Of a stretch of DNA of 64,000 nucleotides, positions 28,348-33,610 are shown piece by piece. Each line of letters starts with the position of its first letter. The stretch's first letter is position 1. The DNA is from Erythrobacter sp. SCSIO 43205. GTDB lineage: Bacteria; Pseudomonadota; Alphaproteobacteria; Sphingomonadales; Sphingomonadaceae. The stretch is from the NCBI RefSeq assembly GCF_019904235.1, contig NZ_CP063202.1:2976001-3040000 (forward strand). Reading direction: 5' to 3'. The position numbers and the translations under genes are program-made. The notes beneath the pieces were generated by a model that did not search any database, was not told the origin of the DNA, and saw only the letters and a program-made list of their open reading frames with translations.

Positions 28348-29415
28348 CTATTCTTGACCTTCCATCAGGCCATGCTTCTTTATCGCGTGGCGCAATTGGT
28401 CGTAGCTAAGCCCCAGACTTTTGGCGGTCTGGCGCTGGTTCCAGCGGTGCTTGCCAAGGGCGTGTTCGAGGATCGCGCGTTCGTGCGCGTCAACAGCAGA
28501 GCGAAGATCATCGACCTTGTCGAGCTGTTCGCTTGGCGGTCCCTTGCTTGCGGAAATAGTCCCGTCATCAGTTGCTATCGCACCAGCTGCCGCGCCGGAT
28601 GAGGCGCTGCCAGAGCGCCTGTGCGAAGGGGTTTTCGGCTTCCACGGGCTTTCAAACGGATCAAACTGTACGTGCGCAATCGGGCTTCCCGGATCGTCCC
28701 AGCGATAGACCGCGCGCTCCACCACATTGCGCAGTTCGCGCACATTGCCGGGCCATTCGTAATTCTCAAGCTGCTCCACCACGTGCGATGCAAATCCGGG
28801 CCAGTCGTGCCAGTGAAGCTCGCTCGACATCCGGCGCGCGAAATATTCTGCGAGCACCGCGACATCCCCTTCCCGCACCCTCAGGGGCGGCAGGGTGATC
28901 ACCTCAAAGCTCAAACGATCGAGAAGGTCCGCGCGAAATTCGCCCGTCTTTGCAAGCGCGGGCAGATCGTCATTGGTGGCAGCCACAATCCGCACATCGA
29001 CCCGGATGGGCCGCGAGGAGCCGATGCGGGTGACCTCGCCATATTCAACCGCTCTTAGCAGCCGTTCCTGCGCGCCCATCGAAAGCGTGCCCAGTTCGTC
29101 GAGGAAAAGAGTACCCTTGTCGGCTTCTTCAAACCTCCCTGCTCGCGCTTTGGTAGCACCGGTAAAGGCACCTGCCTCGTGGCCAAAAAGCTCAGCTTCG
29201 ATCAGGGTTTCTGGGAGCGCGGCACAGTTCATGGTGACGAGCGGTTCGTCCCAGCGATCGGAGAGACGGTGGAGACGTTCGGCGATGAGCTCTTTGCCAG
29301 TTCCGCGCTCACCGATGACGAGCACCGGGCGGCTCATCGGCGCGGCTTTTGAAGCGCGTTCGACGGCGTCGAGAAAGGCGCCGGACTGGCCGATAAACTG
29401 GTTTTCGCGCTCCAC
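28348..29415 (-). CDS. pspF: Phage shock protein operon activator PspF (sigma-54 dependent)
   Basis: A 355-residue bacterial enhancer-binding protein without a receiver domain, as in PspF. The AAA+ domain (about 8-235) has Walker A GERGTGKE, the sigma-54-contacting GAFTGA loop (about 83), Walker B GTLFLDELG and a typical arginine finger region. A low-complexity linker (about 260-305) leads to a Fis-type helix-turn-helix (about 312-352, RWNQRQTAKSLGLSYDQLRHAIKKHG, cited for position). The start is GTG behind AAGGGGGA. It is divergent from the psp operon and shares its control region, so it is likely autoregulated and held off by PspA. Confidence 0.93.
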   Translation of the reverse strand: MERENQFIGQSGAFLDAVERASKAAPMSRPVLVIGERGTGKELIAERLHRLSDRWDEPLVTMNCAALPETLIEAELFGHEAGAFTGATKARAGRFEEADKGTLFLDELGTLSMGAQERLLRAVEYGEVTRIGSSRPIRVDVRIVAATNDDLPALAKTGEFRADLLDRLSFEVITLPPLRVREGDVAVLAEYFARRMSSELHWHDWPGFASHVVEQLENYEWPGNVRELRNVVERAVYRWDDPGSPIAHVQFDPFESPWKPKTPSHRRSGSASSGAAAGAIATDDGTISASKGPPSEQLDKVDDLRSAVDAHERAILEHALGKHRWNQRQTAKSLGLSYDQLRHAIKKHGLMEGQE

Positions 29416-29563: not shown

Positions 29564-29579
29564 TGGCACGCCCCCTGCA
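29564..29579 (+). promoter_or_regulatory. Sigma-54 (-24/-12) promoter of the psp operon
   Basis: TGGCACGCCCCCTGCA matches the sigma-54 consensus TGGCAC-N5-TTGCA at 10 of 11 defined positions; GG and GC are exactly 10 bases apart. Transcription would begin near 29591, about 30 bases before the first start codon. Confidence 0.88.
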
Positions 29580-29622: not shown

Positions 29623-29790
29623 ATGTACAGCAAAGCTTTCTTCCAAACCAAACTTGGCCAAGCCTCACTCGCCAGCATCGTTGCGACGACTGCCATGGTT
29701 GCTCTGACCACGCAAATGAACATGGTCGCAGCCGACCCCGCCATGGCGCAGCCTCACATCGCTTCGCCGATCAGCGTTGAGCTGGCGTAA
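29623..29790 (+). CDS. 55-residue leader protein of the psp operon, unknown function
   Basis: A 55-codon gene starting at the ATG at 29623 behind GGGGA, the first gene after the sigma-54 promoter. It begins MYSKAFFQTKLGQAS, has an alanine/threonine/valine-rich hydrophobic middle (about 14-34) and an AMAQPHIA stretch that could be a signal-peptidase site after residue about 40, leaving a mature peptide of only 12-15 residues. Alternatively it stays in the membrane. It is not PspB, PspC, PspD or PspG by sequence. It ends eight bases before the open frame that runs into pspA. Confidence 0.65.
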   Translation: MYSKAFFQTKLGQASLASIVATTAMVALTTQMNMVAADPAMAQPHIASPISVELA

Positions 29791-29798
29791 GTCTGATC

Positions 29799-30146
29799 GT
29801 GAATCTGAGCAGGCACCTGACCTTGACCAAGAAAGACGATCTTCCTCTCGGACCGGAGCGCGCAGGCAATACCCCTGAGCCCGATAAGAGCCTCGATGAT
29901 GCGTTGTCCCCCGCGACAGACGGCTCTTCAAAGCGCGCTTCGGTCCAAACGCAAGATGATGATGATCGCTTCATCCCGATCCTTGGCAAGAAGCTGTCGC
30001 GCCTCGACAAAGAAATCGAGGCCTTGCGCACCAGCCCCACTCCGACGCAAAGTGAGTATCGGGCGTATGATGAGATCGACTCAGGCAATGAGAACGGTTC
30101 AAATGCGCAGAACAAAACAAACCCGTTTCTTGATGGAGTAGCCTTC
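29799..30146 (+). other. 116-codon open frame fused in frame to the 5' end of pspA
   Basis: From a GTG at 29799, eight bases after the leader-gene stop, the frame stays open without a stop into pspA. The translation is acidic and mostly disordered (DDALSPATDGSS, QTQDDDDRF), with one conserved-looking amphipathic piece (FIPILGKKLSRLDKEIEAL, about residues 58-76). Codon use looks coding. Either PspA has an N-terminal extension here and two starts, or a separate small gene has lost its stop codon. Confidence 0.5.
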
Positions 30147-30833
30147 ATGGGCATTTTCAGCCGCACCAGAGATATTATCGCTGCAAACTTCACCGATATG
30201 CTCGACAAAGCGGACGACCCGCAAAAGATGATCCGCATGATCATCCTCGAGATGGAGGAGACTCTGGTCGAAGTGCGCGCCTCTGCTGCGCGAACGATTG
30301 CCGACCAGAAAGAGATGCACCGCCATGTGGTGAAGCTTGACCGGTTGCAGGCCGATTGGGCCGACAAGGCGCAGCTCGCCCTGTCGAAAGATCGCGAAGA
30401 CCTTGCCCGCGCTGCTCTGGTTGAAAAGAAGAAAGCGGTCAGCATGGCTGATCAGCTCAAAGAAGAGATTGCCGTGCTCGACGATGCCCTTCGCGCTTAC
30501 GAAGAGGACATTCAAAAGCTGCAGCATCGCCTTCGCGAAGCGCGCAGCCGCCAGACCCAGATCGCAGCGCGTCTTGAGAGCGCTGAGAACCGCGTGAAGC
30601 TGCGCTCACTTATGAGCACTGAACGCACGGACGAAGCATTGAGCCGCTTCGACCAGATGGAACGCCGCGTCGATTACGCCGAAGGCCGCGCCGATGCGAT
30701 TGCGATTGGGAATGAGGGCCCGCCTTCGCTCTCAGACGAAATCGCCGCACTCGAAGGTCAGGATGCAATCGACGACGAACTTGAAGAAATGAAGAAACTG
30801 CTCGGCAAGCCCGATGCAGACAAAGGGAATTAA
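30147..30833 (+). CDS. pspA: Phage shock protein A (PspA/IM30 family)
   Basis: A 228-residue ESCRT-III-like membrane-remodelling protein. The start at 30147 gives the family N-terminus (MGIFSRTRDIIAANFTDML, an amphipathic helix that binds stressed membranes) and has GGAG upstream. The long coiled-coil hairpin runs through about 25-190 and the acidic C-terminal helix ends LGKPDADKGN. It inhibits PspF and oligomerises on damaged inner membrane. The in-frame sequence upstream (29799-30146) could extend it to 344 residues. Confidence 0.93.
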   Translation: MGIFSRTRDIIAANFTDMLDKADDPQKMIRMIILEMEETLVEVRASAARTIADQKEMHRHVVKLDRLQADWADKAQLALSKDREDLARAALVEKKKAVSMADQLKEEIAVLDDALRAYEEDIQKLQHRLREARSRQTQIAARLESAENRVKLRSLMSTERTDEALSRFDQMERRVDYAEGRADAIAIGNEGPPSLSDEIAALEGQDAIDDELEEMKKLLGKPDADKGN

Positions 30834-30836
30834 GCC

Positions 30837-31142
30837 ATGGAATGGGAACCAGTCGCCATTGTTATGACACTATTTATCGGCCTGCCTTGGCTGATTCTCC
30901 ACTACACTACAAAGTGGAAGACCTCGGCGACCATCACGTCGGACGATGAAGTGCTTCTGGAAGAGCTCTACAACCTCGCCAAGCGCTTGGACGAGCGGAT
31001 GGACACCGTCGAGCGCCTTGTCGCCAGCGACGACCCAAGCTTCACCCCGGTCAAACGCCTTCAGGCCGATCAGGAAACCGACAACCAACAACTGCGTGAG
31101 CTTGAACAGCTTATCGCCGAGAAGAAAGGAACCAGCGCATGA
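30837..31142 (+). CDS. pspB: Phage shock protein B
   Basis: A 101-residue inner-membrane protein: an N-terminal membrane segment (about 5-25, VAIVMTLFIGLPWLILHY) followed by a cytoplasmic coiled coil with the PspB motif (LAKRLDERMDTVERLV, about 46-62). It is longer than enterobacterial PspB (about 74 residues) through a glutamine/glutamate-rich tail. With PspC it senses envelope stress and releases PspA from PspF. It starts three bases after pspA and overlaps pspC by four. Confidence 0.88.
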   Translation: MEWEPVAIVMTLFIGLPWLILHYTTKWKTSATITSDDEVLLEELYNLAKRLDERMDTVERLVASDDPSFTPVKRLQADQETDNQQLRELEQLIAEKKGTSA

Positions 31143-31516
31143 ACCGCCGCACAACGCTTTACCGCGATAAGCACAAAGCCAAATTGATGGGTGTGGCTGC
31201 TGGTATAGCCGACTACACAGGTGTCGATGCACTTTGGGTACGTCTTGGCATGGTGGCGCTTACCATCTTTGCGCTCGGCCCGATTGGTTTGCTTGCCTAT
31301 TTCGTAATGGGTTTCGTCCTCCAGAAAAAGCCGCCGCACCTTTATCGCGACAGCCAGGAAGAGCAGTATTGGCAGCGTATTCGCCAAAGCCCGAAGCGTA
31401 CGGCACGCGAAATTCGCGCACGCTTCCGGGACATCGACCGGCGCCTTGCCGACGTGGAAACCCACTATGTCAGCAGCAACAAGCGTCTCACCGCCGAAAT
31501 CGAGCAGCTTCGCTGA
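31139..31516 (+). CDS. pspC: Phage shock protein C
   Basis: A 125-residue protein with the PspC domain (about 5-65): LYRDKHKAKLMGVAAGIADY, then ALWVRLGMVALTIFALGPIGLLAYFVMGFVL as the membrane part (both cited as landmarks only in part: GVAAGIADYTG and LLAYFVMGF). The C-terminal half (about 80-125) is a coiled coil ending ADVETHYVSSNKRLTAEIEQLR-like sequence; the spacing of VE-x5-SS and EI-x-QLR resembles the motif in the five genes that follow. It overlaps pspB by four bases. Confidence 0.92.
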   Translation: MNRRTTLYRDKHKAKLMGVAAGIADYTGVDALWVRLGMVALTIFALGPIGLLAYFVMGFVLQKKPPHLYRDSQEEQYWQRIRQSPKRTAREIRARFRDIDRRLADVETHYVSSNKRLTAEIEQLR

Positions 31517-31546: not shown

Positions 31547-31855
31547 ATGTGGGACTGGGCCTATCTTGTACCGCTCGCTGGCATTTCGATCCCGATCATC
31601 GTGATCTGGACGAAGCATCAACAAAAGCTCGCTGAAATGCGCATCGATTCCACCGCCGACGCGACGGCTGAAAAAGCGGCGCAATATGCAAGCCAGGTTC
31701 AGCGTCTCGAAGACCGTGTCCAGGTGCTCGAACGCATCGTCACCGATCGCGGCTATGACGTGGCAACGCAGATAGAGGCGCTTCGCGACACCCGCTCGGT
31801 TGAAGACGGTGGTTCGGGCGTTCCGCTCAACGTCTCCTCGAAGGAGAAAGCATAA
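31547..31855 (+). CDS. PspB-like membrane/coiled-coil protein 1 of 5
   Basis: A 102-residue protein: membrane segment about 4-22 (YLVPLAGISIPIIVIW), then a charged helix and the motif RLEDRVQVLERIVTDRGYD (about 53-71), followed by QIEALR and a tail with GVPLNVSSKEKA. The motif corresponds to RMRERIQALESIL in E. coli PspB, so this looks like a divergent PspB paralog. It starts 30 bases after pspC, and its stop overlaps the next start by one base (TAATG). Its function is inferred only from its place in the operon. Confidence 0.72.
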   Translation: MWDWAYLVPLAGISIPIIVIWTKHQQKLAEMRIDSTADATAEKAAQYASQVQRLEDRVQVLERIVTDRGYDVATQIEALRDTRSVEDGGSGVPLNVSSKEKA

Positions 31856-32199
31856 TGGATTGGGGTGGCCCTGAATTTGTGCTTGGGATCATCGCCGTCA
31901 GCTATGGTGCATGGATCATCAACAACTGGATTCGCGCCAAGCACGGCTACGCCCTCGAAGACGAATGGGGCGGCACGACCGAGCGCAGCGACACAGAAGA
32001 GGCCAAGCGCCTGAAGGCCGAGAATGCGGAGCTCAACAGCAAGCTTGACCAGATGCAGGACCGCATGATCGTCCTTGAAAAAATCGTGACAGACCGAGGC
32101 TATTCGCTTTCGGGAGAAATCGAAGCCTTAAGAGATGTGCCGAGCAAAAATGACACTGGCACCCCCCTCAACCTTAATATGAAAGAGAAACACCCATGA
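31855..32199 (+). CDS. PspB-like membrane/coiled-coil protein 2 of 5
   Basis: A 114-residue protein: membrane segment about 8-25 (FVLGIIAVSYGAWIINNW), a juxtamembrane KHGYALEDEWGG motif (about 29-40), a coiled coil and MQDRMIVLEKIVTDRGYSL (about 67-85), then EIEALR and a GTPLNLNMKEK tail. It is clearly paralogous to proteins 1 and 3. It overlaps protein 1 by one base and protein 3 by four (ATGA). Confidence 0.72.
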   Translation: MDWGGPEFVLGIIAVSYGAWIINNWIRAKHGYALEDEWGGTTERSDTEEAKRLKAENAELNSKLDQMQDRMIVLEKIVTDRGYSLSGEIEALRDVPSKNDTGTPLNLNMKEKHP

Positions 32200-32555
32200 G
32201 CCCCGACGCAGCAGCCGTAATCATCCCCAATCTGCCGTGGATTATCGGCGGCGGGCTGGCATTGGGCGCGGCCGGGATTGCCGGTTGGATCCACACTACG
32301 CGCCTTCGCATCAAGCATGGCTATCCGCTCGAAGGTGCCTGGGGTCAATCGCTGAAACCTGCGACCGATCACGAAGCAAAACAGCGCGTGACCTTGCTGA
32401 CACAGGAAAACGCAGAGCTTCGCGCAGAGTTGGGCGCGGTCAAGGACAGGCTTGCCAATGTCGAACGGATCGTGACCGATGGTAGCTATCAGCTTTCAAG
32501 CGAGATCGACCAATTGCGCGCTCTTGAAAATCAGAAGGATGCAGGGAGCGCATAA
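32196..32555 (+). CDS. PspB-like membrane/coiled-coil protein 3 of 5
   Basis: A 119-residue protein: membrane segment about 12-33 (LPWIIGGGLALGAAGIAGWI), juxtamembrane KHGYPLEGAWGQ (about 40-51, shared with protein 2), coiled coil, VKDRLANVERIVTDGSYQL (about 80-98) and SSEIDQLR. The C-terminal GxPLN tail of proteins 1 and 2 is missing. It overlaps both neighbours (ATGA before, TAATG after). Confidence 0.72.
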   Translation: MSPDAAAVIIPNLPWIIGGGLALGAAGIAGWIHTTRLRIKHGYPLEGAWGQSLKPATDHEAKQRVTLLTQENAELRAELGAVKDRLANVERIVTDGSYQLSSEIDQLRALENQKDAGSA

Positions 32556-32905
32556 TGAGCGGCTGGGCCATCGTTGCAATCATCGCCATCGTGGTCTGGG
32601 GTATTGTACAGACCGCCAAGGCAAAGGCCGGGATCATTTCGGATGAGGACGGCAATGAAACCTATATCGGCACATCGGATGCAGCGACCAAGGCAGAGGC
32701 CGAGGCGATGCGCGCCGAGATGCAACAGCTTCGCGAACGGCTTCAAGTGCTGGAGCGGATTGCGACTGACAACAATTCGCTCGACGCCCGTGAACGCGCC
32801 CGCATTTCGGCTGAGATCGAAGCCCTGAGGGGCACTGACACCCCGGTAAGCGACAGCGGAATCCCCCTTACAACCGCCCCCCAGGAAAAGGAGCAAAGCC
32901 AATGA
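32555..32905 (+). CDS. PspB-like membrane/coiled-coil protein 4 of 5
   Basis: A 116-residue protein: short membrane segment at about 3-20 (GWAIVAIIAIVVWGIVQ), an acidic patch (ISDEDGNETYIG), a coiled coil with LRERLQVLERIATDNNSLD (about 62-80), an insertion (ARERARIS), AEIEALR and a GIPLTTAPQEKE tail like those of proteins 1 and 2. RERLQVLERI is the closest match in the set to the PspB motif. It overlaps the next gene by four bases. Confidence 0.72.
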   Translation: MSGWAIVAIIAIVVWGIVQTAKAKAGIISDEDGNETYIGTSDAATKAEAEAMRAEMQQLRERLQVLERIATDNNSLDARERARISAEIEALRGTDTPVSDSGIPLTTAPQEKEQSQ

Positions 32906-33159
32906 TCATGGACCCGACACTTGTCATCACCGCTGCTTGCCTTGTGGGGATTTGCGTGGTGGCCTTTGCCCTTCTGCGCGCATGGCAGGGATGGCTTGAG
33001 CTTAAGCGGCAGGAACTGGAACGCGCAAGCTCGCGCAAAACATACGATGCCCCCGAAATCGAAGGAGGCGCAGGTGCGGGCGCGGCGCGCATCGAACTTG
33101 CCGATATGAAAGAACGGATCAAAAAGCTTGAGGCGATTGCGAGCGGGGTTGAGCTTTAA
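32902..33159 (+). CDS. PspB-like membrane/coiled-coil protein 5 of 5
   Basis: An 85-residue protein, the shortest of the set: membrane segment about 7-27 (VITAACLVGICVVAFALLRAW), a basic helix, a Gly/Ala-rich hinge and the terminal motif MKERIKKLEAIASGVEL. It ends right after the motif, as enterobacterial PspB nearly does, and lacks the IEALR extension of proteins 1-4. A second ATG two codons in is an alternative start. sufE begins 28 bases later. Confidence 0.68.
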   Translation: MIMDPTLVITAACLVGICVVAFALLRAWQGWLELKRQELERASSRKTYDAPEIEGGAGAGAARIELADMKERIKKLEAIASGVEL

Positions 33160-33187: not shown

Positions 33188-33610
33188 ATGTCGGCGCTTA
33201 TGCGATCACTTGATGACATTTTAGAAGAATACGAGTTTCTCGAAGGCGATGAGCGTTACGGCCTTCTGATCGAGCTGGGCCGTGAATTGGAGCCGATGCC
33301 CGATGCGCTTAAAACCGATGCGACACTGGTGCGCGGGTGCTCGGCAGCGGTGTGGGTCTATCCCACCGAACAGACCGAGACGCTGCATTTCCTTGCTGAC
33401 AGCAATGCCGCAATCACCAAAGGTATCGTTGCGCTGGTCATTGCCGCTGTTCAGGACAAGCCGGCAAGCGAGGTCGCCCAAATGGACGTCGCCGCCGCGC
33501 TCGAGCCGTTCAACCTCAAAAACCAACTGTCGAGCAACCGCACTCAAGGCGTCCCCAATATGATCGCACTTGTGAAAGAGCACGCCGCCCGGCTGGCTGA
33601 CGCAGGGTAA
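33188..33610 (+). CDS. sufE: SufE family sulfur-transfer protein
   Basis: A 140-residue SufE/YgdK-like protein. The active cysteine lies in LVRGCSAAVWV (about residue 51). FLEGDERYGLLIELGRELEP (cited as a landmark) and FNLKNQLSSNRTQGVPNMI are typical. It accepts persulfide from the cysteine desulfurase SufS for Fe-S cluster assembly; no suf genes are adjacent. An ATG four codons later is an alternative start. Confidence 0.9.
   Translation: MSALMRSLDDILEEYEFLEGDERYGLLIELGRELEPMPDALKTDATLVRGCSAAVWVYPTEQTETLHFLADSNAAITKGIVALVIAAVQDKPASEVAQMDVAAALEPFNLKNQLSSNRTQGVPNMIALVKEHAARLADAG

Follow-up and report, generated by a model that had tools for sequence, protein, structure and literature searches.

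Ordered array of small PspB-like membrane proteins, three with a PspC-type tail, behind pspABC in Erythrobacter and related bacteria

The window analyzed here is a stretch of 64,000 nucleotides, part of a complete 3.38 Mb chromosome, and it carries a psp locus. The + strand reads, in order, a sigma-54-like site, a 55-aa ORF, pspA, pspB, pspC, five small genes (P1–P5), a SufE-family gene and a DUF454-family gene, with pspF divergent. The divergent sigma-54 activator gene pspF (28348..29415, − strand) scores 481.2 bits against TIGR02974 (cut-off 443.55). From its canonical start, which has a GGAG-type sequence just upstream, pspA (30147..30833, + strand) scores 280.5 bits against TIGR02977 (cut-off 242.95), followed by the canonical copy of pspB (30837..31142, + strand; TIGR02976, 87.5 bits, cut-off 51.7) and by pspC (31139..31516, + strand; TIGR02978, 126.2 bits, cut-off 104), the C-terminus of which has the tail module also found in P1–P3. 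The interval between pspA and pspC is occupied by the canonical pspB, and the array sits after pspC instead.

For comparison we used 100 psp loci, 68 of them from the window's family, hand-picked across genera from the PspC-score-ranked matches listed (242/247 genomes matched); loci with a low PspC score are under-represented among them, and gene starts and counts follow our own rules. The sigma-54-like site of the window, recognized as TGGCAC-N5-CTGCA (29564..29579, + strand), recurs 5′ of pspA in 53/68 loci of the window's family, against 16/1360 shuffled regions and 0/68 opposite strands, and such a site lies within or just after the array in 2/68 family loci. Terminator-like sites were at chance level (7 vs 6.3 expected). 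A sequence-only reading of the window had assigned P1–P5 to the psp operon, and by position they do belong there, behind pspA-pspB-pspC and divergent from pspF; the array may be co-transcribed with the psp genes. Between the sigma-54-like site and pspA, the 55-aa ORF (29623-29790, + strand) contains a hydrophobic, signal-like stretch and is matched in 26/100 psp loci (tblastn, E < 1e-3). At the other end, the SufE-family gene (33188-33610, + strand) begins 28 bases 3′ of P5 and holds this position after the array in most of the family loci sampled; it could receive readthrough from the psp operon.

The five array genes are consecutive + strand ORFs, located as first proposed and containing the motifs quoted from them. 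P1 (31547-31855, 102 aa), P2 (31855-32199, 114 aa) and P3 (32196-32555, 119 aa) each combine a transmembrane (TM) anchor, a coiled coil and a tail in the PspC register described below; P4 (32555-32905, 116 aa) has a TM anchor and a tail insertion that breaks the register, and P5 (32902-33159, 85 aa) has a TM anchor and a short tail ending KLEAIASGVEL. In a simple Kyte-Doolittle window each shows a single N-terminal hydrophobic segment followed by K/R residues, and the tails are probably cytoplasmic. Neighbouring ORFs overlap by 1, 4, 1 and 4 bases in turn, which suggests translational coupling within P1–P5, and the 30-base gap between pspC and P1 leaves the array without overlap coupling to pspC. 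They are not chance ORFs, because relatives lie between pspC and sufE in 68/68 sampled loci of the window's family. No DNA tandem repeat was found in the window; the repetition of P1–P5 is at the protein level only. The predicted structure of P2 has a helix at 6-30 and one helix at 47-94 (mean pLDDT 76), and the model of the window's PspC has tail helices at 85-113 and 115-124 (mean pLDDT 65); as predictions, these models leave function undecided. Among solved structures, a PDB sequence search gave the array profile generic coiled-coil or weak matches only and gave the window's PspC one match, at E 4.

Profiles for P1–P5 were built from relatives in the fetched loci, each group being the largest clade with one window member and no other in one FastTree run on these short proteins (P1 98, P2 20, P3 52, P4 66 and P5 57 sequences; 22/315 ungrouped). 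Every pair of groups reached 95.5–99.9% in profile-profile comparison, and the same comparison gave 0.02–2.1% against PspA, <0.6% against DUF454 and <1.7% against reversed PspB or PspC-tail profiles. The five genes are therefore related to one another beyond a generic coiled coil, as had been proposed. The accompanying proposal of a relation to PspB holds for the family as a whole, through P1. Against PspB, the profile-profile values were 92.9% for P1 (over 74 columns), 69% for P4, 36% for P3, 10% for P2 and 2.6% for P5, a value that makes P5's own PspB relation unusable and leaves P5 in the family through the other members only.

P1 is the member nearest PspB, matching the NCBIfam PspB model at residues 1-68 with E 9.2e-5, under the cut-off. 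The curated PspB cut-offs were not reached by P1 (22.7 bits vs 51.7 for TIGR02976; 13.4 vs 25.6 for PF06667), and P2–P5 scored under P1 or gave no match to these models. With a PspB HMM of 21 sequences, a number set by trimming, which retained 20 of the 32 array-less loci in addition to E. coli, 103/315 array proteins scored at least 10 bits, compared with 13/3150 heptad-phase shuffles and 0/315 reversed tails. When 32 array proteins were scanned against 18,950 NCBIfam models at E 0.05, PspC was matched most often (22 members), ahead of PspB (13 and 8) and of the next model (5); no array member scanned against Pfam and NCBIfam rose above any cut-off. In the reverse direction, an HMM made from P1–P4 relatives alone matched pspB in 43/100 loci and the pspC end in 64/100, with three further non-array matches among 4898 ORFs. 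The E. coli PspB motif given in the sequence-only reading agrees with the K-12 MG1655 sequence. We are highly confident of the anatomy and homology of the array proteins.

The tails of P1–P3 align to the PspC C-terminus, gap-free within the tail. The shared register runs R, +5 E, +15 hydrophobic, +18 charged/polar, +19 I/F/L/V and +22 L/M/I, usually at or near the protein end. It is present in 161/170 proteins of the P1–P3 types (P1 90/98, P2 19/20, P3 52/52), in 8/66 of the P4 group, 11/57 of the P5 group and 7/22 ungrouped sequences, and it is found in PspC from 68/68 family loci, 32/32 other loci and E. coli. None of 95 PspB sequences confirmed by the PspB HMM has it (100 were extracted and 5 left out as unconfirmed), nor do any of 2900 ORFs of at least 60 aa that are neither Psp nor array relatives. 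Some PspA ORFs (24/101) have the register too, and it is therefore not unique to PspC-like tails.

Scores against the PspC tail point the same way, with PspB remaining ahead by overall profile. With a PspC-tail HMM of 33 sequences (array-less relatives and E. coli), 111/315 array proteins scored at least 10 bits, compared with 2/3150 heptad-phase shuffles and 5/315 reversed tails; group medians were 14.9 bits for P3, 11.9 for P2, 9.4 for P1, 3.0 for P4 and 2.0 for P5. P3, the member nearest the PspC tail, reached 19.2 bits, ungapped, and matched positions 77-121 of the NCBIfam PspC model at E 5.5e-4, under the cut-off. The profile-profile link to the PspC tail is weak (P3 19%, P2 9%, P4 6%, P1 3%, P5 0.4%) and lower than the PspB link in every array group. 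The window's array proteins matched the C-terminal part of PspC only (TIGR02978/PF04024), without its N-terminal domain and with a best score of 19.8 bits vs the cut-off of 104. When the window's genome was searched with the array profile, the end of PspC ranked first outside the array (E 0.018). The tails of P1–P3 thus also match the PspC C-terminus, in a register that PspB lacks, a second link that the sequence-only reading did not include. Conservation among the array proteins is highest in the tail, which suggests that it has a protein partner.

Array size varies among the 68 family loci, with one gene in 2 loci, two in 1, three in 10, four in 18, five in 18, six in 14, seven in 4 and eight in 1; a P5-type gene is present in 61/68. 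Outside the window's family, an array gene was found in 5/12 loci of one family, 1/14 of another and 0/6 in three more. The single case among the 14 (L057:4200-4424, − strand) is a PspB-like duplicate directly 3′ of pspC that ends LDAEVPGWRERLD, which is of PspB type and unlike the array. Six loci from another family of the order (L038, L044, L050, L052, L056 and L059) have a second short PspC-like gene (73-84 aa) after pspC, followed in 5/6 by one array-type gene. A further 31 named loci, found via P2 and hence positive by construction, hold 4-9 array genes each and include Erythrobacter longus, Qipengyuania, Novosphingobium, Sphingomonas, Sphingopyxis, Sphingorhabdus and Pacificimonas; near relatives of P2 among 120 of 1367 matches listed include Erythrobacter and Qipengyuania. 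A class-wide scan at E 1e-5 matched 10/387 genomes, 6 of them from the window's family. The phylum-wide scan matched 53/397 genomes. Of these, 24 lie outside the class, 21 belong to the window's family, 3 to another family of the order and 5 to one more family of the class; with 324 unmatched genomes unlisted, the scan gives no absence rate for the window's family.

The array is ordered and old. One-per-genome clades were recovered for P3 (52 sequences from 52 genomes, support 0.996), P5 (50 from 50, 0.995) and P4 (44 from 44, 0.909; the larger P4 clade of 66 has a support of only 0.258), and with weaker support the largest such clades were 20 sequences for P2 (0.64) and 9 for P1 (0.858). Using these clades as labels, the order P1-P2-P3-P4-P5 is kept in 59/59 loci with at least two labelled genes. 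Recent tandem duplication or gene conversion was considered and rejected: besides the lack of a DNA tandem repeat, no conversion tract was found when 599 pairs of genes sharing an array were compared in the 68 family loci; the longest exact DNA match was 29 bases and the median 10, against a median of 9 and a maximum of 24 in 500 cross-genus pairs. Instead of the repeated local duplication of PspB first envisaged, the one-per-genome clades, the constant order and the short exact matches indicate old, ordered paralogs.

Relatives also occur away from psp loci. We found 23 such solitary proteins in 20 loci of 17 genomes, and 22/23 have the register, most ending at the module or within 1-2 residues of it. 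No relative of PspA, PspB, PspC or PspF was found near them in 20 stretches of ~10 kb (blastp, E 1e-5), and of ten neighbours examined with Pfam, five had no match and five were non-Psp. The solitary-protein profile reached 93% against PspB and 51% against the PspC tail, and one member of a tandem solitary pair scored 40.7 bits to the PspB model (cut-off 51.7) and 27 to PspC. One solitary protein has relatives in the Alteromonadales genera Thalassotalea, Colwellia and Pseudoalteromonas, which different sources name phage shock protein B or phage shock protein C. Near position 5000 of L181-L200, solitary relatives of ~80 aa mix PspB-like and PspC-tail-like features; those in L188 and L196 adjoin a ~163-aa ORF, which in L188 is a dUTPase.

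A further feature of the locus lies at the start of pspA, where the reading frame stays open upstream as far as a GTG at 29799. The conserved N-terminal extension that this adds (29799..30146, + strand) includes RLDKEIEALR at 30000-30029. Its pattern, with the core RLDxEIERLR, is present in 44/68 family loci and 20/32 genera, and in 0/32 loci outside the family; in an alignment of 45 extensions, the core is followed by SPTPT, with at least 80% conservation. The core resembles the last ten residues of PspC, RLTAEIERLR-COOH, and the pattern occurs in the last 16 residues of PspC in 42/68 family loci and 0/32 others, in 19/315 array proteins, and in 0/2149 family-locus ORFs that are neither Psp nor array relatives. 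A GGAG-type sequence precedes the internal ATG in 44/44 loci with the extension, and also in 24 family loci without it, and its retention would allow two forms of PspA. Public records hold 96 PspA-family proteins with the extension (E 0.001), 90 of them 300-353 aa long, which speaks to annotation, not expression. Family loci with the extension have a mean of 5.0 array genes vs 4.0 without it (Mann-Whitney p 0.006, kinship ignored). Adjacent array genes overlap by exactly 1 or 4 bases in 140/236 pairs, made up of 128/168 pairs from loci with the extension and 12/68 elsewhere.

The best overall explanation, to which we give a probability of roughly 0.45, is that the array is an old, ordered family of single-TM proteins belonging with pspABC and providing extra docking points for PspA and partners for PspB and PspC. 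A PspC-type tail on a PspB-like anchor, encoded in the same operon, is best read in this way. Each of P1–P5 carries a tail behind a PspB-like anchor and a coiled coil, and in P1–P3 this tail is in the register of the PspC C-terminus. Induction of the operon by PspF and sigma-54 would then yield several membrane-anchored PspC-like tails that differ in anchor and linker, and these tails would act as additional PspA docking points at the inner membrane. The array proteins would also pair with PspB and PspC in mixed coiled coils, and docking and mixed coils together would set how easily PspA is recruited and PspF released. P4 and P5 may have a different role. The docking step, taken on its own, is tentative and falls short of even odds. 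In E. coli, a PspC fragment of residues 69-119 makes contact with PspA in the presence of PspB and induces psp, and mutation of the PspC zipper (residues 77-98) abolishes PspA contact (PMC3068692); for Yersinia, the cytoplasmic domain at the C-terminus of PspC is described as binding PspA in the on state (PMC5596341). The zipper lies mostly upstream of the module (~97-119 in E. coli), and the zipper mutants thus speak little to the module itself.

Alternatively, the array proteins could be silencers of PspB type, additional coiled-coil partners that keep the PspC tail in the off state and make induction harder to trigger, with no binding to PspA of their own. The array profile is nearer PspB than the PspC tail, and a 2016 paper states in its title that PspB-PspC cytoplasmic interactions silence the Yersinia response; however, a register that is found in 0/95 PspB sequences is kept in 161/170 proteins of the P1–P3 types, and we regard this alternative as unlikely. 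PspD and PspG are small additional membrane proteins of the psp regulon, and the array proteins could likewise be effectors and not regulators, supporting the bilayer or recruiting other partners with PspA signalling unchanged. Differing anchors and linkers, the altered tails of P4 and P5 and the solitary relatives that lack a PspA, PspB, PspC or PspF relative in their ~10-kb stretches (20/20 loci) would fit such a role, but the best-conserved part is the tail, which points to a protein partner, and we consider it improbable. That the proteins are unrelated single-TM coiled-coil proteins with a merely compositional likeness to PspB and PspC is very improbable: weak matches to assorted coiled-coil Pfam families (for example, DivIC for P2, E 0.011) and the better match of some solitary relatives to the DivIC model than to the PspB model, under the cut-off, are set against the heptad-phase shuffle, reversed-tail, reversed-profile, PspA and DUF454 controls, the NCBIfam tally and the 68/68 operon position.

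The docking reading could be extended to a tail-competition network around PspA, in which the peptide of the long form and the array tails vie with PspC for one site. We think this improbable. Convergence can occur among short helical peptides, and the resemblance of the PspA extension to PspC does not by itself imply a common partner. If there were such a network, one ORF would give a long PspA bearing a near-copy of the PspC end and, from the internal start, a short canonical PspA, and the operon would encode graded mimics of PspC, one carried in cis by PspA itself and others presented in trans by several membrane anchors.

Taken together, the array is an old, ordered set of extra small membrane proteins behind pspA, pspB and pspC, which may give PspA added docking. 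This suggests that, across a large group of environmental bacteria, the system extends beyond the three genes of the E. coli-style operon. How PspB and PspC transfer the signal to PspA is still under debate, as is the orientation of the PspC tail (PMC3068692), and a lineage with multiplied PspC-like tails on one-TM anchors offers natural, separable versions of this hand-over.

The initial remark that such a set was not known from any described psp operon needs correction, given that PspB duplicates in a psp operon are mentioned in one clause, with AOL22920.1 as example, in the accessible text of Ravi et al. 2024 (PMC11237479). The order, number, tail module, lineage and solitary relatives are absent from that clause, and we regard as new here the array order, age, tail register, solitary relatives and PspA extension, the PspB duplicates being already in print. 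Among the ranked and capped listings of a literature search there was no published account of the array in sphingomonads; psp genes are mentioned in passing in the accessible parts of PMC9241875 and PMC5443232, and the accessible text of PMC9239133 contains no word beginning sphingomon or alphaproteobacteria.

Among known Psp proteins, PspD adjoins pspC in E. coli, and its sequence, judged by eye, is without such a tail. P1–P3 share their register with the PspC tail (TIGR02978 positions ~76-121), whereas the array proteins lack the PspC domain, have a single PspB-like TM segment and show a weak profile-profile link to that tail. Compared with PspB (PF06667, TIGR02976), they fall under the curated cut-offs, and P1–P3 have a PspC-type tail where PspB has LDAExPxWR. 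Like PspB, however, they have a single N-terminal TM segment, K/R residues predicted to face the cytoplasm, a coiled coil and an R-x4-E core, and P1 aligns across the whole PspB model.
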